Virus record (IMG/VR): IMGVR_UViG_3300046804_000919
Coordinates: 1-24,953 of that record
Direction: 5' to 3' (one strand)
DNA from: a virus
Length of the DNA stretch: 24,953 nucleotides
Shown here one piece after another: positions 1 through 24,908 of this stretch (position 1 is its first letter; every line of letters begins with the position of its first letter). The notes beneath the pieces were generated by a model. The model did no database searches. It was not told the origin of the DNA and was given only the letters and a program-made list of their open reading frames with translations. Made by a program: the position numbers and the translations under genes.

Positions 1-186
1 CTTTTAGGCTGCGCAGAAATTGAGCAAGTAACTGTTAATTGAGGAATATTTCCCCCATCTTCCCACCATCGGCAAAAAGGTAGCCCTAGCTCCTACCCTA
101 GCTTCTCCACTCCCTACCACTCCACACTATACTTAACCATCCCCTGTGGGATATCATACAGCCTTCTATAGTTGATGGAGAGATAC
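1..186. repeat. Left arm of long inverted repeat
   Basis: This stretch is the reverse complement of 24106-24294. I see one difference over the whole length: a run of three C here (84-86) faces a run of six G on the other arm (24206-24211). The repeat covers the last 23 codons of the large terminase gene, its stop codon and about 113 bases of non-coding DNA. Homology ends at 186. On the other side it runs to position 1, so it may continue beyond the window. Near-identity in non-coding sequence points to a terminal-type repeat, a very recent duplication or an assembly fold-back. Confidence 0.95.
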
Positions 187-1421
187 CGCAAGCTATCGAC
201 TATGTGCGATGCCCAGTTGTGCAGTGGCTTTGTTGCAAAGCAAGCGTTAGCTTCGTCATACTCTCTTTGGTACTCACGTAATGCTCTGATACCTAGATTG
301 CATTCTGTTGTGTTTATCCTAACTCTAGGTAGCATGTATCTTAGAGCCTCGATGCCATCCTCTAAGCTAAGCTTTGGTGTGATTTGGAAATTCCATCCTG
401 CTCGTCTTGCCTGCATAAGTCTTGATTCTGCTTGCTCCCAACCTTGGTGTTTTTGGCTAATGTCATGTGGCCCGAAATGATTCCCCCACTGACAACCCCA
501 TTGCTCTTTAAGTTTATTTGCCCAGTCAAGAAAATGCTTAAGGCCGTAGCCAGTATCGTGTAAGAGAGCCAGTAAATTAATGTAATTACCTTCAACTTGG
601 AATAGCCATCCTGCGGTTGCATCTGTACCTCCTAAGTCCCAAACACTGTGTAATGGTAAGTTTGGATTTGCGCGCAATGGCAAAATTCGACCTTCGATAT
701 CCATATCATGCATTTCTCTAGTAAAATAAGCACCTTGGTTACCTGTCGTGAAGTCGCAATAAAACTCTTGCGCAATCATTTCATCCGACATACCACGCTT
801 TTTAATATCTTCAATGTCTTCCAAGGTAATGATAGGACTACCGTCAGCTTTAGTAGTCTTATCTATTCCAAGATGCTCAATATGGTATTTGGGATTGTCT
901 TTGACGGTTTCAAACAATTCCCAAAGATGATTCTTACCTCGTGGCGTGCTTTGTATAATTTCAACGCCTTTGTTCTGCACAATAATAGGGTTTAAGTATT
1001 GCCGTGCATTTGGATTATGTAATGCAAACTCTGAATAAATAATTGTAACCGGATTAGTTCCGATTAACCCAGTAAGGTTATTACTACCAGCCAATACTAG
1101 ACGGCTGCCGTTGATTAGCCTAATTTCCATTCTTGCGTCATTTTTATACTCAATTAAACATTCTGGAATATTGTTTAAGAATGGCTTACCATCAAAGTCC
1201 ATACCAGACCAAATAACGCTGCGTGCTTGCTGTAACAACGGAAACAAATAAACATGCGTTCCGACCCTCTGCAAAGCCCTTAGAATCCACATTTGCAAAC
1301 AGGCAATATCTTTTCCTGCCCTGCGATGAATAATTGCTAGAACATGCTTATTTTGTACTATAGCTTTGAACATTCGTTCTTGATGTGGGTATGGTTTAAT
1401 TGTCGGTATAGCTAAATACAT
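114..1421 (-). CDS. terL: Terminase large subunit (packaging ATPase and nuclease)
   Basis: At 435 aa this is the motor that cuts concatemeric phage DNA and pumps it into the prohead through the portal. Visible motifs fit the family. A Walker A-like HRRAGKD lies at residues 32-38, and a Walker B strand ending TIIYSE has the catalytic Glu at 131. The coupling motif QSTPRGKN is at 157-164. The nuclease domain has its first acidic residue in VWDLGGTD (D262) and a late acidic residue in WASHIVDSLRYL (D409). It is the last gene of the leftward late operon. Its ATG shares one base with the stop of the nuclease gene before it (TAATG), suggesting coupled translation. The last 23 codons lie in the inverted repeat and are duplicated at 24107-24178. 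Family assignment is firm. The subfamily (T7-like or other) is inferred from neighbours. Confidence 0.96.
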   Translation of the reverse strand: MYLAIPTIKPYPHQERMFKAIVQNKHVLAIIHRRAGKDIACLQMWILRALQRVGTHVYLFPLLQQARSVIWSGMDFDGKPFLNNIPECLIEYKNDARMEIRLINGSRLVLAGSNNLTGLIGTNPVTIIYSEFALHNPNARQYLNPIIVQNKGVEIIQSTPRGKNHLWELFETVKDNPKYHIEHLGIDKTTKADGSPIITLEDIEDIKKRGMSDEMIAQEFYCDFTTGNQGAYFTREMHDMDIEGRILPLRANPNLPLHSVWDLGGTDATAGWLFQVEGNYINLLALLHDTGYGLKHFLDWANKLKEQWGCQWGNHFGPHDISQKHQGWEQAESRLMQARRAGWNFQITPKLSLEDGIEALRYMLPRVRINTTECNLGIRALREYQREYDEANACFATKPLHNWASHIVDSLRYLSINYRRLYDIPQGMVKYSVEW

Positions 1422-1831
1422 TATATAGTTCTCATGTAAGCATCAATTATTGATATACCCAAGTCAGTTCCAATAGCCCACTCTGCCATATATCCTTTGG
1501 CCTTCATCTGATTTATAAATGCTTGCTGTCTAGCTAAATGTTCTTTTTGTGCTGGCGTTGGCTTCCATCCATCCTTCTTCACCTCAATAAACAGTCCCGG
1601 ATATTTAGATGTAGGGAAAGCAAAAAACAAATCAGAAGCTCCGGCACGCAATCCAAGCCTTGGGAGAATTTTGTTTGTCGAACGGCTTCTTTGCCCTTCA
1701 TTATGGATTTTTATTACACATTCTGCTAATTCAGGATAACGCAATCTACAATAATCCAAGATTGCCATTTGAGTTCTATCCTCTGGCTTAAGGTGAAACT
1801 TTTTGGTTGTACTCTTTGCTCGCAATTGCAC
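1421..1831 (-). CDS. VRR-NUC domain nuclease
   Basis: This is a 136-aa protein with the VRR-NUC fold, a small PD-(D/E)XK-type nuclease found in phages and in FAN1-like enzymes. The signs are a conserved HNEG near residue 43, a Gly-rich GLRAGASDL with the metal-binding Asp near 67, the catalytic pair in GLFIEVKKDG (E83, K85) and a downstream Gln in TPAQKEHL (Q95). I chose the GTG start at 1831 because AAGGA lies 8 bases upstream and the domain begins soon after. The longer reading to 1921 adds only a hydrophobic stretch antisense to nothing and overlapping the gene before it. It overlaps the DUF1353 gene by 44 bases and terL by one. Next to terL, it may trim or resolve branched DNA before packaging. 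That role is inferred. Confidence 0.85.
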   Translation of the reverse strand: MQLRAKSTTKKFHLKPEDRTQMAILDYCRLRYPELAECVIKIHNEGQRSRSTNKILPRLGLRAGASDLFFAFPTSKYPGLFIEVKKDGWKPTPAQKEHLARQQAFINQMKAKGYMAEWAIGTDLGISIIDAYMRTI

Positions 1832-2267
1832 AATGATTATCCTTGTTAAAATGACCACTCCCGGCAATACGAACTGCCAGCCAATACAGGTAAGATTTAA
1901 CAGGATTAACCAAATTGTCAATTAGTGATGAGTGAAAAATGCTATCAATTTTCTGTCTAGTTAAGTTATTAGGACAAGTATATAAATAATCATGCAGTAT
2001 TGATGGGCCAATTGTTTTAATATCGTAAGGTGATTGGATTGACCAGAATATTTTTGGAATAGATGCAAAATCTGTAATAAATCCTTTTGGAATAGTTATA
2101 AGTTTATTATCAACTTCAACAACCAATCTTGAATTTAATTTAAAAACTCCATCGTTAACAGGTGTTACTGATATTTTATTAAGAAAGTTAATATTCTCAT
2201 TTGGAGTGCATGTACTCAGAAAACTAGCGCAAATGAGAAGTCCAGCAAGAATGAAGGGACGTTTCAA
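1788..2267 (-). CDS. DUF1353 domain protein with lipoprotein-like signal
   Basis: At 159 aa this matches DUF1353, a domain of unknown function common in phages. The key signs are GFITDFASIPKIFW and, about 25 residues later, ILHDYLY. Before the domain is a short signal: KRP, then a hydrophobic run FILAGLLICASFLS, then Cys20 in LSTC. This resembles a lipoprotein signal, although Thr before the Cys is not typical of a lipobox. I chose the TTG start at 2267 because GGGGGTG lies just upstream and because it places Lys-Arg directly before the hydrophobic run. A TTG at 2288 would add seven residues. The 3' end runs into the nuclease gene. If exported, it would sit at the inner or outer membrane, which would suit lysis or superinfection exclusion. 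No role is known. Confidence 0.8.
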   Translation of the reverse strand: MKRPFILAGLLICASFLSTCTPNENINFLNKISVTPVNDGVFKLNSRLVVEVDNKLITIPKGFITDFASIPKIFWSIQSPYDIKTIGPSILHDYLYTCPNNLTRQKIDSIFHSSLIDNLVNPVKSYLYWLAVRIAGSGHFNKDNHCAIASKEYNQKVSP

Positions 2268-6428: not shown

Positions 6429-9020
6429 TTAAACTACAGTTATATTACCTTGTGGGCCACCAAGTACAGTCCAAGTTGTATTTGCCGTCGTGCACAATAA
6501 TTCTATACTATCGTATTGATTAGTACTTGCAATATATCCTGTTGCACCAACAGTAGAACTAGTAAAGCCTAATTGAATATTTTGACCAGCATTCTGCGCT
6601 ATCTTCCAACCGCCAGCACCTTTACCAACAACATTTATTACTGTACCAAAGGCTGCCGTTGTAGGTAATGTTAAAGTAACTAATCCAGCATTTGAAGCCA
6701 CATATCCATTATCAGCAGACATAGCCTGAGTTGCGCCAGTTACTTCTGTCCAGCCAATACCAGAACCTGTTCCACTAACTGTAATAGAGCCAGCTGCATT
6801 TGCTATACTTATACCGGGGCCTGCTGTGAGCGTTGCTGGTGTTGGTGTACCACCTGTAGAGCCAATCAAAACTTGACCGTTGGTCATTGACCCAGTCCAA
6901 GCAGGAACGCCAGAGCTATTTGTAACTAAGGTTGCACTATTTGCAGATGTTAAGCCGCTAACAGTATTGGTTGCAGAACTATAAAGCAGTTGGTTTGCCG
7001 TTGTTGTGCTGGGGTATGTCGCAGTTGTAAATGTGTAAATTGAACCATTACTTTGCGCTAAAGTACCATTTGCACCAACAGTGCTTGCACCTGTACCACC
7101 TCGGCTTACGCCCAATTGTCCCGACCATCCCATCGTGATACTTGCAGCTTGCAATAGAGCAGTTGCTGGAGCTCCACCTAGGGTGATTGTTACGTTTGTA
7201 TCTGAAACACTTGTTAATGCCGCTGGTGTTACCGTTGATGGCGCAGTATTTGTAATAGTAATACTGTTAGCACCATTGGTAATACTAATTCCAGTGCCAG
7301 CGGTAAGGTTTGCAGATGCAGGTAAATCATTAGTTTTACCGATGATGATTTGACCATCATTCAAACCTGCCGACCATTGTGGAACTGAATTATTATCGGA
7401 AACTAAAACAGCATGTTGTTGTGTTCCGATTTCACCAACCGTATTGTTAGCACTAGAATACAGAATATGATTCTTATTAGTACTGCTAGGATAAGTTGCT
7501 TGCGTGCTTGTCCAATTAGTGCCATCAGATTGCATTATCTTACCACTTGCAGGTGCAGTGTTTGGATATGCTGCTGTTGACCAAACAGGCTTATCAGCAT
7601 TCTTAGACATTAATACGCGGTAATTATCAGCAGGATTTGCTAACATGCTAGGAACACCAGTAGCATTACTCACTAATACACCGCCAACAGCAGCAGCAAT
7701 TTGACTTACTGTATTATTAGCAGAGCTATATAAAATATTGTTAATAGTTGTAGTTGATGGATATGTGGCTGTAGTAAATGTATATTTTGTACCATCACTT
7801 TGAGCCAATGTGCCATTTGCACCTACTGTACTTGCGCCTGTACCGCCTCGTGCGACATCTAGCAAACCACTCCATCCTAAGGTCAATGAAACAGCCTGTA
7901 ATAACGCTGTAGCAGGAGTTCCACCTAAAGTCAGGGTTACATTTGTATCGTCTACTTTAGTTAAAGCAGCGGGCGTATATGGAGCACCAAAGCTAGTCCA
8001 GCCTAATTGACCTGAGCCATCAGTTGTAACAGCCTGCCCATTTGTTCCATCAGACTGTGGCCAGTTAAGACCATCTAAAACTAAATCACCTGTGCCATCT
8101 GGCGTTAGGTTGATGTTACCGTTAGTGTCCGTAGAAATTATTGTGTTGCCAGAAATTTGAATGTTGCCGATATTTGCTTGTCCGATATTAGAAATATTGT
8201 AGCCATCTGCATCTACGTTACCACCAAATGTCATTGTACCGGGTAATACAAGAGCATTAGATAAGCTGAATACTGGATTTCCTGTTCCTGTGCCATTAGT
8301 AACATCAATTTGATTTGTTGTTCCTAACAATGTTCTAGTGCTTACAACACCAGTAGCCGTAACAGATGTCATAAATCCAGTTGCCAATGGACTTAAAGCT
8401 TGCTGATTTGGCAGTTCACCACTAGGAGACCATGGCGTTTGTAGAATGTAAGTTGCATCACTTGGTGCTAGACCACCGCCAGATGGAAAGGTAATTGCCT
8501 CAATAGCTGTATTATTAGAATTCTTTTTCCAGCCTTCATTTGCACCTAGGATAGGCAAATAAATATCTCCACCTTCACCTGTTATTGGGTCGCCTAAATC
8601 TGGCGTTGAAGATACGTTATAATGTGGCGCAACCTGCTCATTGTATAACTGCGCCTGCTGGTCAACCAAGGTTAATATGCCAACGTCTTGGTTAAGCATA
8701 CTGGGGGTAAAGTTTGTATTGGTATATAGGTTTAAACGGTCGGCTGGTGTATCTCGTGTAATTGTAATCACATCACCAGCAGCACGTGCGACTAGAAAAG
8801 TTACCTCAACTATTTCTGAGCCACCAACAAAAGCCACTGTGTAGTTAATTGAACTTACTAACTGTGTTAAATCATCAGGATCTTGTGCTGAGGTTCTAGC
8901 ATAAACAACAACATCAGATGCAGCATTAGCAGTCCAGTTAGTGGTAAATACTGTTTGGCCAGCCGTAGCAGTTATTTGGGTTTTTGGTGGTACATCATTT
9001 ATTTGTACTTGAGTAGACAT
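6429..9020 (-). CDS. Tail fibre protein with T7 gp17-like N-terminal domain
   Basis: This is an 863-aa fibre. Residues 1-130 match the pattern of the T7-type tail-fibre anchor: early Gly/Gln-rich strand, WTANAASDVVVYAR, DPDDLTQLVSSINYTVAF, VITITRDTPADR, then FTPSMLNQDVG and a helix with DQQAQLYNEQ. This domain fixes the fibre to the tail tube. The shaft is long and low in complexity, with GGTGAST elements and a 91-residue unit present twice (349-439 and 598-688). The C-terminal 120 residues (WTEVTGATQAMSADNGYVA to WTVLGGPQGNITVV) look like a compact tip domain common in phage fibres. AAAGGA lies before the ATG. It is followed by several smaller adhesin genes. Confidence 0.88.
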   Translation of the reverse strand: MSTQVQINDVPPKTQITATAGQTVFTTNWTANAASDVVVYARTSAQDPDDLTQLVSSINYTVAFVGGSEIVEVTFLVARAAGDVITITRDTPADRLNLYTNTNFTPSMLNQDVGILTLVDQQAQLYNEQVAPHYNVSSTPDLGDPITGEGGDIYLPILGANEGWKKNSNNTAIEAITFPSGGGLAPSDATYILQTPWSPSGELPNQQALSPLATGFMTSVTATGVVSTRTLLGTTNQIDVTNGTGTGNPVFSLSNALVLPGTMTFGGNVDADGYNISNIGQANIGNIQISGNTIISTDTNGNINLTPDGTGDLVLDGLNWPQSDGTNGQAVTTDGSGQLGWTSFGAPYTPAALTKVDDTNVTLTLGGTPATALLQAVSLTLGWSGLLDVARGGTGASTVGANGTLAQSDGTKYTFTTATYPSTTTINNILYSSANNTVSQIAAAVGGVLVSNATGVPSMLANPADNYRVLMSKNADKPVWSTAAYPNTAPASGKIMQSDGTNWTSTQATYPSSTNKNHILYSSANNTVGEIGTQQHAVLVSDNNSVPQWSAGLNDGQIIIGKTNDLPASANLTAGTGISITNGANSITITNTAPSTVTPAALTSVSDTNVTITLGGAPATALLQAASITMGWSGQLGVSRGGTGASTVGANGTLAQSNGSIYTFTTATYPSTTTANQLLYSSATNTVSGLTSANSATLVTNSSGVPAWTGSMTNGQVLIGSTGGTPTPATLTAGPGISIANAAGSITVSGTGSGIGWTEVTGATQAMSADNGYVASNAGLVTLTLPTTAAFGTVINVVGKGAGGWKIAQNAGQNIQLGFTSSTVGATGYIASTNQYDSIELLCTTANTTWTVLGGPQGNITVV
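6957..7229 (-). repeat. Second copy of 91-residue fibre shaft repeat
   Basis: This codes for residues 598-688 of the tail fibre, from TPAALTSVSDTN to LLYSSATNTVS. It aligns without gaps to 7704-7976. By my count 74 of 91 residues are the same. The GWSG, RGGTGASTVGANGTLAQS and YTFTTATYPSTTT blocks are the best conserved. Confidence 0.85.
7704..7976 (-). repeat. First copy of 91-residue fibre shaft repeat
   Basis: This codes for residues 349-439 of the tail fibre, from TPAALTKVDDTN to LYSSANNTVS. It is the partner of 6957-7229. A shorter related piece with ATYPSSTNKNHILYSSANN lies between the two copies, so the shaft seems to have grown by internal duplication. Confidence 0.85.
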
Positions 9021-17961: not shown

Positions 17962-18555
17962 TTAGTTAATAGAGTTTGGATATACACCGCCAATATAACG
18001 GTTGCCCAATACAGGAAAATCGACCTGTGTAAATTGAGGATGGTTTTGACAATCAACAGCCAATGCCATGCCTTGTTGTCTAATGGCCTCAGCTTTAATT
18101 GCTTGATAGTAATCCGTTTTTTCAGCATTACTTAAACAAAGGTAAGCAGCAATTTCGAATACAAAGTAGTTAACAAAATGCGCTGGTAATCGAGATACAT
18201 CTGGTTGGAATATAAATTCCATCCACCATGGACCTTCTTGGAATGTATATATTCTATCATTGTTGAATATATTCCAATCATAAACATTCGGATAAACCTT
18301 AAGGACTTTTAACCAGCCACTTGGCAATTGAAACGCATATTTGTACGGAGGTGGTGCAACTTCAACTAATTGAGATAACTGCTCAATCTTAGTTGCAAAA
18401 CGCCAGTTCCCCTCTGCAAGCTTGCTAGGCAAAAGCATATCAAAAGCTTGTTCTGCAGCGACAACAAGTTCATCTTGGTCTATTAATGATACAACAGGGG
18501 CATGGCCCAACTGTGTAACAGCATTACTAATAATCTGTACCTTAGTTAAAGCCAT
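17962..18555 (-). CDS. Tail tubular protein A (adaptor/gatekeeper, gp11-like)
   Basis: This 197-aa protein starts MALTKVQIISNAVTQLGHAP. The pattern of an N-terminal helix ending ALxxLG and then WxxA..ALAE-type motifs (here FDMLLPSKLAEGNWRFATK) marks the gp11-type adaptor that sits under the portal. It also has the usual Pro/aromatic turn (PPPYKYAFQLPSGWLKVLKV) at about 70-89 and a late helix YFVFEIAAYLCLSNAEKTD. I chose the ATG at 18555 because AAGGGGA lies directly against the earlier ATG at 18561 and is 6 to 7 bases from this one. The order tubular A then tubular B is conserved in T7-like phages. Confidence 0.9.
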   Translation of the reverse strand: MALTKVQIISNAVTQLGHAPVVSLIDQDELVVAAEQAFDMLLPSKLAEGNWRFATKIEQLSQLVEVAPPPYKYAFQLPSGWLKVLKVYPNVYDWNIFNNDRIYTFQEGPWWMEFIFQPDVSRLPAHFVNYFVFEIAAYLCLSNAEKTDYYQAIKAEAIRQQGMALAVDCQNHPQFTQVDFPVLGNRYIGGVYPNSIN

Positions 18556-20539: not shown

Positions 20540-20850
20540 TAAACACCTGCCTGTTTAGCCTCGTGATCTTTTCTAGCTTGATAGCTTTGTACACTGCCAA
20601 GAATTTGTCTTAAAGCTTCACGATAACCTTCGTAAAAAACACACATGTGCGGATACTTCTCATCAACTGGGCCCGGTGTCGGGGCAATTAAAAACTTTTC
20701 TTTAATAATCTCTAAAAGCTTTTTACCGTCAGTTGTGTTGAATACATTCCAACAGAGTTCATCAAGAGGAGTTCCTGATTGCTGGCTTTCCGTTGTTGTA
20801 TAGTTTTCATAATAATTCTGTGGTTCGATATGTGGGTTATGTTCAGTCAT
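20539..20850 (-). CDS. Bbp19-like phage protein
   Basis: This 103-aa protein has a disordered N-terminal third. It is followed by LCWNVFNTTDGKKLLEIIKE and then VFYEGYREALRQILGSVQ. The pair F-x-T-x-DG..+.LL....E and the F.EG.R...R.IL helix is the signature of the small Bbp19-like family found between portal and scaffold genes (first named in Bordetella phage BPP-1). Its function is unknown. It lies one base after the portal stop and overlaps the scaffold start by one base, so it is probably translated with both. Confidence 0.75.
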   Translation of the reverse strand: MTEHNPHIEPQNYYENYTTTESQQSGTPLDELCWNVFNTTDGKKLLEIIKEKFLIAPTPGPVDEKYPHMCVFYEGYREALRQILGSVQSYQARKDHEAKQAGV

Positions 20851-20851
20851 T

Positions 20852-22426
20852 TTACACCTGTGGTAGTGGGGCCTGTTGACCCTGTTGTTCCATCATCATT
20901 TGCTGTTCATTTCTTTTGTTTTGCTGGTCTTGCATGACCTGCGCAACCTCTGCTGGAGCATTTAATAATCTATTATCGATTTGCATTAAATCAGCCAATA
21001 GATATGGGTACTCCATTGGATTAATAAAAATTTGAGCAGCTTCCGGACCACTTATACCTTGTAGCAATTGGAAGAACTGAGTAAACCTAGCAATCTGTTC
21101 CTGTCCTTTCGCTAAAGCTAGTGGCGACCGATATACAAATGATATCATCTTTCTATCAATTTGTGGATAGGGTAATAAGCCCATTTTATCGAGGATGTAA
21201 CTACATCTTTCGATTACTGGCCACAAGAATTCTTGTTGTAAACGACTAAATAAAGGCCCGATACGTTCTGCCAAGGTTTGGTTTTGAATCATGATTTGAG
21301 TTGCGCTTACAGGCTGTTTAGTGTCAGTTGGAATCAAAGAATCTGCAAACAACAAACTCCGAATCTGCATACGCAAATCTTGGATAGTCAATTGGCTAAA
21401 TTGAGGATTTGAAGTATCAGGCAATGGAATCAATGGCGGTTGTCCTGAGCTGCCAAGAGGCGCAATTGGAATAATCGTCATTGGTTGTAGTTTAAATGTA
21501 TTTGGATTGAATGTCGCATCATTGAATGCCATGTATGGCTTGAATGTATTTAAGTTAGCAGCAGCAAGCTCAATTCGAGCCAATTCATTTAAACTGATAA
21601 TCGATGGTAAAGCATCCATTACTGGGCCACGACCATATGTATCAGCGTTTGTTTTTTGGAATCGCCATACTATACCGGGGTTTACTTCAAAGTCTTCGGT
21701 GTAGAAAATATCATTATCAGAGCAAACTACGTATTGATACTTTTTATCTCGTTGAGGATTATACATCACTCCTTCATACACTTTTTTGATTGTATAGTCA
21801 GGATTGTTTTTAATCTCTCTGATTAACTCTTGTGGCAATACAGCTTTTGACCAGCGAATAGTAATTTCGTTAGCCTTAACATCTTCCCAGTTACGATACC
21901 AAGATTCAATCTTGCCAGTCATTGCTTCTTCAATGGCTAACTTATCCATCGGAATTGAAGTAAATAACAATGGTTGTTCGTCAGTGTATTGATTAATTAC
22001 TAAACATGATGTGCCTACAGATAAATCAAAATAACATTCATTGATAACCACATCAAAATTAGAGTCGTGGATGTAATCAAACAGTTTGCGCATGTAGTCA
22101 TTGAGCAAACGTTGAGCATCATCCCGACTTATTCCTGCTTCATCTTCATCGAATTCTGGGTCAATTGTTAAAAAACCCCATTGCGTCTGAGGTGGGGTCA
22201 TTGCAGTATGGAGTTTACTAACAAAAGTCTTTGTGGCTTCAATGGCTGTTGTGTCATAAACACGAGTGCCTTTCGCTTCGCCTTGTTGTTCTTTGGGTCG
22301 CCAGAATCGATTGCGGTTTGGTATTGCATAGAAATAACAGGCTTCATGCAGACTAGCCCAAAGATAGCTTATCTGCATTGCACGGTTGTAACGCTGCTTA
22401 AATTGGTCTACTAGTCTGTCAGCCAT
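20852..22426 (-). CDS. Portal protein (head-tail connector)
   Basis: This 524-aa protein belongs to the podoviral head-tail connector family. Signs are the N-terminal WASLHEACYFYAIPNRNRFW, then VYDTTAIEATKTFVSKLHTA with MTPPQTQWGFL, the IMPNECYFDLSVGTSC-like core (INECYFDLSVGTSCLVI), a long helix in DALPSIISLNELARIELAAA, and PVSATQIMIQNQTLAERIGP. The C-terminal tail is rich in Gln and Met. It forms the twelve-subunit ring at the unique vertex through which DNA enters and leaves and binds terminase and tail tubular A. AGGAT precedes the ATG, 3 bases from the stop of the gene before. Confidence 0.95.
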   Translation of the reverse strand: MADRLVDQFKQRYNRAMQISYLWASLHEACYFYAIPNRNRFWRPKEQQGEAKGTRVYDTTAIEATKTFVSKLHTAMTPPQTQWGFLTIDPEFDEDEAGISRDDAQRLLNDYMRKLFDYIHDSNFDVVINECYFDLSVGTSCLVINQYTDEQPLLFTSIPMDKLAIEEAMTGKIESWYRNWEDVKANEITIRWSKAVLPQELIREIKNNPDYTIKKVYEGVMYNPQRDKKYQYVVCSDNDIFYTEDFEVNPGIVWRFQKTNADTYGRGPVMDALPSIISLNELARIELAAANLNTFKPYMAFNDATFNPNTFKLQPMTIIPIAPLGSSGQPPLIPLPDTSNPQFSQLTIQDLRMQIRSLLFADSLIPTDTKQPVSATQIMIQNQTLAERIGPLFSRLQQEFLWPVIERCSYILDKMGLLPYPQIDRKMISFVYRSPLALAKGQEQIARFTQFFQLLQGISGPEAAQIFINPMEYPYLLADLMQIDNRLLNAPAEVAQVMQDQQNKRNEQQMMMEQQGQQAPLPQV

Positions 22427-22720: not shown

Positions 22721-22855
22721 CTATATCCAAATATGTACATATATTACTTTTTCTTGAAATTCGGACGGTTGTATTACTCTATCAACAAATACAATCCTGT
22801 GTGGGATTTTTATTTGCTTACGAAGCGTCTTTAATTGAGATAATATTGTCGCCAT
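22721..22855 (-). CDS. Small overlapping protein (44 aa, RPSxF/VIYVH type)
   Basis: This frame overlaps the last 38 bases of terS in the +1 frame and fills the otherwise empty gap before the next gene. It encodes MATILSQLKTLRKQ, then HRIVFVDRVIQPSEFQEKVI and finally YVHIWI. Short phage proteins with an IVFVD..I.PS.F.E+VIY pattern near the small terminase are familiar to me, although unnamed. A weak GGA lies 3 to 4 bases before the ATG, so translation may be coupled to terS. Confidence comes from the protein-like pattern and from the fit in the gap, not from a strong ribosome site. Confidence 0.6.
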   Translation of the reverse strand: MATILSQLKTLRKQIKIPHRIVFVDRVIQPSEFQEKVIYVHIWI

Positions 22856-23399
22856 TTTCCAAGCTCATTTTAGCTAAATCGTCTTTCATCTTATCAACTT
22901 CTTGTTGTAGTTTGAAGCTTTCATAAGCACGTATACCGATATTGATTGATTCCATCAATTGCTTAATCTCAGACGCGCTTAAATCGCCCTCAGAAGCTTG
23001 CATAAGCAATTGCTGATACTGAACATGTGGGTCAGCTTTTGTATCAAGGTTGACACGCACACGGCCTTGTTTATTGTAATAAAATCTTGATGTACCAATG
23101 CCTTCCCAAAATCTCCAATTAAAGTCCGGATTGTCAGCATTGTTTTCGCCTTCACGTTCCCACAACATTTGAGCAAAATTAACTGCAATCCGAGAACATT
23201 CGTCAAAGATTCGGTGTTTTCTGCGCCAGTCATAGTATGTTGTATCAGAAACTAATGCCTCTACACAAAACTCTGCAACAGAACCGCCATTACCAATAAT
23301 TTCAAGAACCATTAAGCAATGTTTTTTTTCATCGTAAACTTTGCCATTAACGTTCTTTTTAGCTTGTTCGTAAATTTTTTTAGGGTCTAATTTTGTCAT
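22818..23399 (-). CDS. terS: Terminase small subunit
   Basis: This 193-aa protein recognises the packaging site and loads terL. An N-terminal helix-turn-helix is visible at about 36-62 (IIGNGGSVAEFCVEA, then SDTTYYDWRRKH), the usual terS pattern for homing on DNA. A middle segment with FNWRFWEGIGTSRFYYNK and a C-terminal helical part (KLQQEVDKMKDDLAKMSLEN) for oligomerisation follow. I chose the ATG at 23399 with AAAGGAG 8 bases upstream, rather than 23423. It is the first gene of the leftward late operon and is divergent from the lysozyme-fold gene. terL lies at the far end of the same operon. Confidence 0.85.
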   Translation of the reverse strand: MTKLDPKKIYEQAKKNVNGKVYDEKKHCLMVLEIIGNGGSVAEFCVEALVSDTTYYDWRRKHRIFDECSRIAVNFAQMLWEREGENNADNPDFNWRFWEGIGTSRFYYNKQGRVRVNLDTKADPHVQYQQLLMQASEGDLSASEIKQLMESINIGIRAYESFKLQQEVDKMKDDLAKMSLENGDNIISIKDAS

Positions 23400-23421
23400 T
23401 TTTAGATTCTCCTTTAAACTC

Positions 23422-23450
23422 ATTATGTCTAAATTTTAAAAGGGTTACAA
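23422..23450 (-). promoter_or_regulatory. Candidate sigma-70 promoter for the late operon
   Basis: In the 51-base gap between divergent genes the minus strand reads TTGTAA (23450-23445), a 17-base spacer, then CATAAT (23427-23422). These match four and five of six consensus bases. The start of the message would fall about 10 bases before the AAAGGAG of terS, leaving a very short leader. A phage-specific promoter cannot be excluded. Confidence 0.42.
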
Positions 23451-23921
23451 ATGATTGATATTAAACAACTCAGAGAGTTAATTATTAAACCATCATTGGA
23501 TAAGTTACAAATGTATAGCACAGATGCGGAGGAATTACTCGTATTTACTTGTGCTTGTGAGTCACTCGGTGGAACTTACATAAAGCAAGTTAAAGGGCCA
23601 GCGCTTGGTATTTATCAGATGGAGCCTAATACATACACAGATATTTGGCAGAATTTTATTAAGAATCAAGGTAATTTAGTAAACATGCTTTCGCTTAACT
23701 TTAACGTGCTTTCAATGCCATTGCCTGAGCGTATGATTTATGACCTACAATATGCAACTGCCATGGCTAGATTGCATTACCGTCGAGTTAAAGCGCCCAT
23801 TCCAGACCACAAAAATATTGATGCCGTTTGGGAGTATTACAAAAAGTATTATAACACTCCATTAGGCAAGGCCGAGAAAGAGCAATCTATAAAGCACTAT
23901 CAGAAGTATCTAAAGAGCTAA
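23451..23921 (+). CDS. Lysozyme-fold protein, transglycosylase-like
   Basis: This 156-aa protein contains two elements of lysozyme/SLT-like folds. CACESLGGTY has the candidate catalytic Glu37, and GPALGIYQMEPNTYTDIW at about 49-66 recalls the G.(M/Y)Q(I/M).P motif of transglycosylases. Phage proteins with an ES.GG.Y..Q..GPALGIYQMEP pattern are common and mostly unnamed. It could cut peptidoglycan in lysis, or act from the virion and so replace the lysozyme domain missing from the gp16-like protein. AAAGGG lies 6 bases before the ATG. It is the only plus-strand gene beside the late operon and is convergent with the 72-aa gene, overlapping it by 35 bases. Confidence 0.7.
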   Translation: MIDIKQLRELIIKPSLDKLQMYSTDAEELLVFTCACESLGGTYIKQVKGPALGIYQMEPNTYTDIWQNFIKNQGNLVNMLSLNFNVLSMPLPERMIYDLQYATAMARLHYRRVKAPIPDHKNIDAVWEYYKKYYNTPLGKAEKEQSIKHYQKYLKS

Positions 23922-24105
23922 GAGCGCTATTGCATTCTTGTACATCTTTCATTTCGACTAACTGCAAGCAATGGGAGCAAACTAATCCTGTTGCTTGTTT
24001 AGTGTATTGGCTTACAACAAAATTATATGCAATAAAACTATGATAACCATTTGTATTCATTACACAGTGTGAAATATCCTCATACCAAGCTAACCAGTCA
24101 CGCAT
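23887..24105 (-). CDS. Small unknown protein with CxxC (72 aa)
   Basis: The protein starts MRDWLAWYEDISHCVMNTNG, has VVSQYTKQATGLVCSHCLQL in the middle and ends in Ser/Asp-rich sequence. The CSHC pair could bind metal with other Cys or His (HC at 13-14), but the full set is not evident. I chose the ATG at 24105. GGAGAG lies 4 bases upstream and belongs to the inverted repeat, whose homology stops exactly at 24106. Its 3' end overlaps the lysozyme-fold gene. If the repeat junction is a chimera, the true start or upstream DNA of this gene may be lost. Function is unknown. Confidence 0.5.
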   Translation of the reverse strand: MRDWLAWYEDISHCVMNTNGYHSFIAYNFVVSQYTKQATGLVCSHCLQLVEMKDVQECNSALSSLDTSDSAL

Positions 24106-24178
24106 GTATCTCTCCATCAACTATAGAAGGCTGTATGATATCCCACAGGGGATGGTTAAGTATAGTGTGGAGTGGTAG
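24104..24178 (+). pseudogene. Duplicated 3' end of the terL gene
   Basis: From 24107 the plus strand repeats the last 23 codons and stop of terL (from YLSINYRRLY to VKYSVEW). An ATG is formed by chance at 24104 from outside sequence. There is no ribosome site, so expression is unlikely. In this orientation it lies upstream of the early-type promoter, as terL would at the joint between two genome units. Confidence 0.85.
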
Positions 24179-24294
24179 GGAGTGGAGAAGCTAGGGTAGG
24201 AGCTAGGGGGGCTACCTTTTTGCCGATGGTGGGAAGATGGGGGAAATATTCCTCAATTAACAGTTACTTGCTCAATTTCTGCGCAGCCTAAAAG
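24106..24294. repeat. Right arm of long inverted repeat
   Basis: This is the partner of 1-186. The sequence is the same except for six G at 24206-24211, where the other arm has three C. The left boundary (24106) abuts the ATG of the 72-aa gene. The right boundary corresponds to position 1, so it is set by the window edge and may not be the true end. Confidence 0.95.
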
Positions 24295-24353
24295 GGGACT
24301 GGCAGGGCGATACTCAGACTTCTGAGGCACCGGACTCACTCCCCCCAGCGAAA

Positions 24354-24408
24354 ACCCGAAACCCTCCCCGCGTGGCCCCGAATTTTTTGATTTTTTGGTT
24401 TTTCGGGT
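24354..24408. promoter_or_regulatory. Inverted repeat with alternative pairing
   Basis: ACCCGAAA at 24354-24361 can pair with TTTCGGGT at 24401-24408. A second CCCGAA at 24377-24382 can pair with the same right arm. The two stems exclude each other, and the T-rich run lies in both loops. It could be part of a terminator or switch before the early promoter, or chance in a low-complexity stretch. Confidence 0.35.
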
Positions 24409-24455
24409 ATATTTCAAGGTTCCGTTCCTACTATACCACTCACTTCATTTACCTA

Positions 24456-24483
24456 TTGACAACTGTCACATAACTGATATAAT
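24456..24483 (+). promoter_or_regulatory. Strong sigma-70 promoter before early-type genes
   Basis: TTGACA at 24456-24461 and TATAAT at 24478-24483 are both perfect consensus hexamers, with a 16-base spacer. The start point would fall near 24490, about 20 bases before the first ATG at 24512. A host-recognised promoter of this strength is what an early region needs. Confidence 0.85.
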
Positions 24484-24511
24484 GGCGTCTGATTATTTAC
24501 AGGAGAAGAGA

Positions 24512-24718
24512 ATGAGTGAAATATATGTAGAGATAAGCGAACAAGTTTGGCCAGCTTTTTATAGCGACAATCAACAGCAAGCTTTATTAAATGTTCTTAG
24601 CAAAATCCAAAATCAACCATTTTATCGCAATCAAGATATCATGACGTTTGCAGGTTTTTGTAATGACGCCAAAGAATTATTATTTTATGTACAAAGCAAA
24701 TTAAAAGGTCTGAAATAG
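24512..24718 (+). CDS. Early-type small protein (68 aa)
   Basis: This is the first gene after the strong promoter. The protein begins MSEIYVEISEQVWPAFYSDN, is mildly acidic to neutral and mostly helical (QQQALLNVLSKIQ, FCNDAKELLFYVQSKLKGLK). No family is recognised. AGGAGAAGAG lies just before the ATG at 24512. An upstream ATG at 24395 would place the start before the promoter, so I rejected it. Small genes at the start of early regions often adjust host functions. That is inferred from position only. Confidence 0.75.
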   Translation: MSEIYVEISEQVWPAFYSDNQQQALLNVLSKIQNQPFYRNQDIMTFAGFCNDAKELLFYVQSKLKGLK

Positions 24719-24731
24719 AGGCGAAAGCCTC
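24718..24731 (+). promoter_or_regulatory. Intercistronic tetraloop hairpin
   Basis: GAGGC-GAAA-GCCTC forms a five-base-pair stem closed by a GNRA tetraloop. It begins in the last base of the preceding stop codon and is followed by CATGGGAG and the next start. The pattern is repeated after the next gene. It probably protects message ends or sets spacing of the ribosome site. Confidence 0.65.
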
Positions 24732-24746
24732 ACATGGGAGAAGAGA

Positions 24747-24848
24747 ATGAGAACACAATTTTTAATATCAGAATATCATACGGGATTAATTAGAAAGCTA
24801 ACTATATCTTGGCTTGATGGTAAGGTGACTGGCTGGGCTTTAGATTGA
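24747..24848 (+). CDS. Tiny early-type protein (33 aa)
   Basis: The frame encodes MRTQFLISEYHTGLIRKLT, then ISWLDGKVTGWALD. The ribosome site and start (GGAGAAGAGAATGAG) are identical to those of the gene before, over 15 bases. A hairpin precedes and another follows it, so it is framed as a separate cistron. The pattern of alternating hydrophobic residues suggests a small beta sheet. No family is recognised. Confidence 0.55.
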   Translation: MRTQFLISEYHTGLIRKLTISWLDGKVTGWALD

Positions 24849-24850
24849 CA

Positions 24851-24863
24851 GGGGCATAGCCCC
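24851..24863 (+). promoter_or_regulatory. Second intercistronic hairpin
   Basis: GGGGC-ATA-GCCCC forms a five-base-pair stem. Like the hairpin at 24718-24731 it follows a stop codon by a few bases and is followed by GCATGGGAGGAG and a start codon. The sequence of the stem differs but the arrangement is the same. Confidence 0.65.
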
Positions 24864-24878
24864 GCATGGGAGGAGCAA

Positions 24879-24908
24879 ATGATTAAAGTAGATAAACGTA
24901 CACGCTAA
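24879..24908 (+). CDS. Nine-codon frame with strong ribosome site
   Basis: MIKVDKRTR follows GGGAGGAG with the same spacing as the neighbouring genes. After the TAA the same frame continues with 13 basic codons (RHVRRMCRWIKNV) to a TAG at 24948. It may be a true micro-gene, a leader, or a short basic gene of about 23 codons broken by a point change or a sequencing error. Confidence 0.35.
   Translation: MIKVDKRTR

Follow-up and report, generated by a model that had tools for sequence, protein, structure and literature searches.

The window, a stretch of 24,953 bases that constitutes a whole IMG/VR record, comes from a short-tailed phage in which a single control region occurs twice, as mirror images, on either side of the structural genes. 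Because the record is complete, the left end of the window is also the end of the contig. The late module (114–23423, minus strand), which forms the large arc of the genome, encodes the packaging, head, tail and internal virion proteins. Its final gene is a complete terL (114–1421, minus strand; PHROG terminase large subunit, 1.4e-21), the 3′ end of which lies inside the left copy of the repeat. Its first gene (22818–23423, minus strand) encodes a helix-turn-helix protein with weak HTH_Tnp Pfam matches, which keeps this place in relatives and is probably the small terminase. At the module's far end, the gene here called lys (23451–23921, plus strand) reads toward the right copy of the repeat; it matches a family of unknown function (phrog_3108, 4e-39), it adjoins the repeat throughout the group of relatives, and its product is lysozyme-like as judged by inspection only. 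The initial annotation described the late operon as pointing away from the right arm, which is true of the minus-strand terL, but lys, the gene immediately left of the repeat, shares the plus strand of that arm and marks the late module's other end. A small CxxC open reading frame (23887–24120, minus strand), which in the window has its start codon within the repeat, belongs to family F0, seen in most long lys arms; in most relatives this family is found between the lysis gene and the repeat, antisense to the lysis gene.

Some further features of the late module may be mentioned here. Directly upstream of terL, the product of 1421–1921 (minus strand) is nuclease-like, with a match to a Holliday-junction-resolvase family (phrog_824, phrog_5702), and could act in packaging or in the resolution of recombination. 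Between 2651 and 3638 on the same strand there are four to five consecutive small, very basic and related-looking reading frames (50–107 aa, with many K, R and A residues), which recur in the relative G003 at 20767–21342 and perhaps encode DNA-binding virion proteins. The 863-aa tail-fibre-like gene contains two 146-nt direct repeats, at 6958–7103 and 7705–7850, that are 73% alike.

The inverted repeat and its contents

The right copy of the repeat, R, is proven by repetition within the window at 24106–24294 (plus strand), and is matched in inverted orientation by the left copy, R′, at 1–186 (minus strand). The two are 100% identical save for one 3-nt gap in a G run; this sole difference, GGG versus GGGGGG, resembles slippage. 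The length of the match excludes chance, and we regard the inverted repeat itself as secure. The initial annotation suggested looking for a second copy at the right end of the contig, where it is absent; it is the left end that carries it. The contig terminates within R′, 5 nt short of the point at which a conserved element, described below, would start. R opens with a copy of the last 23 terL codons and the stop, without a start codon (24106–24178, plus strand). By tblastn, 24107–24175 encodes terL residues 413–435 at 100%, followed by a stop, and the segment is a detached copy of the end of the complete gene at 114–1421. Homology to the relatives G003 and G032 suggests that the repeat unit of the window probably continues past the promoter and into or beyond the first early gene, to end at around 24500–24900.

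Read rightward, the end of terL is followed by non-coding repeat DNA, a GC-rich stretch, a consensus promoter and a small gene, all on the plus strand, as first annotated. R spans about 0.5–0.8 kb and holds an outward promoter together with a conserved non-coding element of 36 nt. In the window this element, CTGG-N25-CACCGGA, occupies 24299–24334 (plus strand) and points outward from the late module; in most cases GAGAGTT is found inside it. With a weight matrix, each of 37 records yielded a single site scoring above 15 bits, always in R and always outward, including in records outside its training set (G012, G017, G028, G049 and G050), and no further such site occurred in about 1.5 Mb. When 2.9 million viral contigs were scanned with the element pattern, 13 stretches matched, every one from this group. 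An exact 31-nt pattern from the window's R matched nothing in viral_contigs, and blastn of the element region against 50,697 phages gave no match. The element is a candidate protein-binding or cleavage site. An RNA element was rejected, as minimum-energy folds had no common structure and an Rfam search returned nothing above threshold; the missing common fold makes a DNA site the likelier of the two.

Next to the element lies a GC-rich C-tract (24341–24369, plus strand) with four runs of at least three C, which places a G-quadruplex motif on the opposite strand. Such a motif accompanies 15 of 30 elements, against a background of 0.0015 per 120 nt. The promoter (24456–24483, plus strand) is an extended −10 sigma-70-type sequence, TTGACA-16-TATAAT with TG before the −10 (12/12), which reads into the early arc and recurs at 12/12 in the R of the window's close relatives; sigma-70-type sites of at least 9/12 are not enriched (5 found versus 5.1 expected from shuffles). 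The first gene at this end of the early arc (24512–24718, plus strand) encodes 68 aa of unknown function and is conserved in G021, G032, G033, L200 and L202. The small early-type genes of the initial annotation are borne out to this extent, the subsequent tiny reading frames being only putative.

Relatives and the genome plan

Relatives were found using the terL protein and a terL alignment, and most of their records were read whole. Viral contigs contained 60 terL loci. Two scans of the bacterial and archaeal genomes in genome_contigs gave zero terL relatives, and prophage or host DNA was rejected as an origin on this basis. No terL in the phage collection exceeds 37% identity to that of the window. 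Late modules are almost always 22–24 kb long and run between terL and a lysis-type gene; their records tend to end shortly after terL. In one late module (L036, of G017), 18139–18396 encodes part of a replication initiator family (46% identity, 86 aa).

Forty-two contigs, the window among them, hold the terL end as well as the lys end of the late module. By our count, 29 of these have an inverted repeat, 69 nt or longer, that joins the terL side to the lys side; in most of the remainder, one arm is cut within about 80 nt. No close relative has divergent modules and lacks the terL fragment. An assembly chimera was rejected as the sole explanation, since dozens of records, differing in the sequence of R, contain the inverted repeat. 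The start of the repeat inside terL varies, from codon 413 in the window and G003 to about 378 in G019 and about 332 in G017, and such drift of the borders is characteristic of inverted repeats in which one copy overwrites the other. Within genomes, copies assembled independently beyond the k-mer length are 97.7–100% alike (window, 98.4% over 189 nt; G048, 98.7% over 234; G011, 97.7% over 174; G044/L191, 100% over 434), whereas the R of the window and that of G003 are only about 76% alike, a pattern that indicates concerted evolution. Four isolates were checked (ZP6, HTVC010P, MEP301 and Vibrio phage 1.254.O), and the long inverted repeat is absent from them. We found no tailed phage of this kind reported in the open-access literature.

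The nearly complete record G003 (31.6 kb) reads as R′ (1–119), late module, R (23805–24291), early arc, R′ (31524–31600), with R′ pieces of 119 and 77 nt, an R of 487 nt and an early arc of 7.2 kb. In this relative the repeat therefore recurs at the early arc's far end. The R of G003 comprises the last terL codons, a non-coding stretch of about 350 nt, the promoter and 18 codons from the start of an early gene. That of G032 measures 817 nt and takes in the entire 68-aa gene homologous to 24512–24718 of the window. The ends of the late arc both adjoin one side of R and those of the early arc both adjoin the other, giving a dumbbell. This shape indicates a circular or concatemeric molecule containing an inverted repeat, as opposed to a linear one that ends in simple terminal repeats; circularity is suggested by the early arc's two ends. 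Hairpin ends, division into separate linear segments, and inverted terminal repeats were rejected, as in many records R runs on into late DNA on one side and early DNA on the other. No single contig has both copies of R complete, and the plan is best explained by a genome of roughly 32–36 kb, with a late arc of about 22–24 kb and an early arc of about 7–14 kb.

Two joints between the arcs

The early arc is joined through R to terL in G003, G007 and G033, and to the lysis gene in the window, L024, G032 and L190. Two phages were each recovered with both joints. For one, represented by G032 and G033, flanks of 10810 and 4168 nt (about 15 kb) are 100% identical and the joint is lys–R–early in the first record versus terL–R and the same early end in the second. 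For the other, both joints are seen between G007 and L190, with flanks of 3789 and 6854 nt at 100%, and L196 agrees with L190. The terL joints, and the T7-like order of terL, non-coding DNA and early promoter, are what a T7-type concatemer joint would give, with R serving as a direct terminal repeat that separates terL from the early genes and the inverted copy incidental or misassembled. We consider this very improbable: the window and its relatives have the repeat in inverted orientation, the inverted copy stands by the lysis gene in dozens of records with differing R and often deep inside the contig, and a direct repeat cannot yield late modules flanked on both ends by outward-facing R. The related suggestion that the early region follows terL as in T7, with the late segment reversed in this sequence, is too simple for relatives that have both joints and R twice inverted. 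Divergent modules with duplicated repeats, the better of the initial annotation's two options, is the arrangement that the relatives display.

On the evidence of the assemblies, we think it likely that the genome exists as two coexisting isomers. R and R′ would together form a large inverted repeat dividing a circular or concatemeric genome into late and early arcs, and homologous or single-strand-annealing recombination between the copies would flip one arc against the other. The same recombination would homogenise the copies of R, and the population would hold two isomers. With an early promoter and a 36-nt element in each R, in the same outward sense, the early arc would have a promoter at both ends, both ends of the late arc would carry the element (possibly a terminase start site, possibly a replication origin), and the phage would work in either isomer.

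This recombination would probably be carried out by two phage-encoded proteins, an ExoVIII-like nuclease and one of Rad52 type. Profile searches of G003 show that the early arc encodes an SSB, an O-like initiator, and the nuclease (phrog_412 ExoVIII, 5e-57; DUF3799, 4e-25) with a partner protein. For the predicted structure of the partner (mean pLDDT 69), the best structural matches are RAD52 (Z 6.2, rmsd 5.6, 136 aligned), Mgm101 and Sak, with Red-beta further down and modest scores overall (Z 4.8–6.2). A viral library gave Rad52- and Erf-named proteins at E<1e-3, and Foldseek against the PDB alone gave no significant match. The model suggests that the partner is probably a Rad52-fold annealing protein, and the pair could recombine the repeats. 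No site-specific invertase was found among the G003 early proteins scanned by profile, the other early reading frames being only compared with one another.

Alternatively, each species may have one arc order, with opposite joints arising from arbitrary assembler choices; we hold this to be fairly unlikely. Both joints are known from assemblies, and since R, at 0.5–0.8 kb, exceeds many short-read inserts, a joint could indeed be the assembler's choice. Short reads cannot order two arcs linked by a long repeat, and GetOrganelle reports every possible configuration for such circular genomes (PMC7488116). Many contig-end overlaps, at 99–127 nt, equal the k-mer length; these overlaps, and the varied positions of the ends, also led us to reject the contig ends as virion ends. 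In the window's clade, the six phages (WIN, G021, G024, G032/L202, L200 and G003) share one orientation, with the record G033 as the sole exception. This dominance suits a fixed order, and at the least implies that flipping may be rare. However, orientation is mixed across the relatives (by our reading of an early-arc gene-order comparison, 13 records have one orientation and 5 the other), and an unsupported assembler would be expected to stop, as happens at most copies of R. The clade-wide dominant orientation, together with copies assembled independently beyond k, argues against joints made purely by chance. With a fixed order, R would be a duplicated regulatory region that gives a promoter to both ends of the early arc and is kept matched by gene conversion, a proposal to which we attach the same limited credence; exchange between inverted copies is often accompanied by crossing over, that is, by flips. 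The inverted-repeat plan also explains why records of this family often end at terL and are classed as linear, and databases probably contain many half-genomes of these phages.

Possible roles of the repeat and known systems

R may act in packaging, replication or early transcription. A packaging start (pac or cos) in two inverted copies, which would be compatible with the isomers, is a guess that has something in its favour yet falls short of probable. Whichever copy was cut, the late arc would be packaged first and the early arc last in either isomer, and the early genes would enter the next host first in both; in T7, the early genes are injected first. Such a site is suggested by the single rigid 36-nt element in each R with its fixed 29-nt spacing, by its GC-rich position just beyond terL and its constant outward sense, and by the lack of a shared RNA fold, which speaks for a site in DNA. 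The same features would, however, be expected of an origin or operator, and near the element contig ends show no accumulation at any single base.

We judge it unlikely that R is instead a replication element, also compatible with the isomers, in which recombination between inverted copies turns the forks around and double rolling-circle replication produces concatemers. The inverted repeats and the recombination pair are the parts that this requires, but no origin was found, and the gene for the O-like initiator belongs to the early arc, outside R. Double rolling-circle replication provokes inversions at inverted repeats; inverted-repeat recombination has been tied to it in the 2-micron plasmid, and it has been suggested for chloroplast DNA and HSV (PMC3147054). 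We tentatively propose, as a combination that we rather doubt holds in full, a widespread family of uncultured short-tailed phages with a two-isomer genome, in which the early promoter and the start site for packaging both reside in R, either arc orientation can be packaged, the early genes are always first in, and an annealing recombinase flips the arcs during replication. If true, this would be the first tailed-phage family known to us with a genome built as two flippable arcs. It would extend the herpesvirus and organelle design to phages, and the purpose of that design (packaging, replication or expression) would become testable in a small genome.

Several known systems resemble this arrangement in part. 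T7-type podoviruses, with direct terminal repeats, share the short-tailed gene set and the order of terL end, repeat and early promoter, but the repeat of the present phage has inverted orientation and flanks the late module on both sides. In Mu G and P1 C inversion, inverted repeats likewise flank an invertible piece; there an invertase swaps tail fibres, whereas in the present phage the invertible piece would be an entire arc, late or early. The halovirus phiH1 is also a tailed virus of prokaryotes with a multi-kb invertible segment, the 11-kb L segment (PMC6210493), but its flanking repeats are copies of the insertion sequence ISH1.8, while R is a regulatory repeat in its own right, conserved throughout a phage family.

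Closer parallels come from chloroplast genomes and the yeast 2-micron plasmid, in which a circle is split by an inverted repeat and the two single-copy arcs are found in either relative orientation. In plastids, the borders of the repeat wander across the ends of genes, much as those of R do within terL. The 2-micron plasmid uses a site-specific recombinase, of which none was identified among the phage early proteins scanned. In the HSV-1 genome isomers, too, inverted repeats part unique arcs that invert, and the HSV packaging signal sits in the repeats. HSV-1 encodes the exonuclease UL12, which stimulates single-strand annealing (PMC3415443), and the phage encodes its ExoVIII-like nuclease. 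HSV-1 differs in being a eukaryotic virus with far larger repeats and four isomers, where the phage has one repeat pair and two candidate isomers. What the phages share with the herpesvirus, plastid and 2-micron designs is the presence of two inverted copies between unique arcs, as found in the window, in 29 of 42 contigs and in G003, and the homogenisation of those copies.
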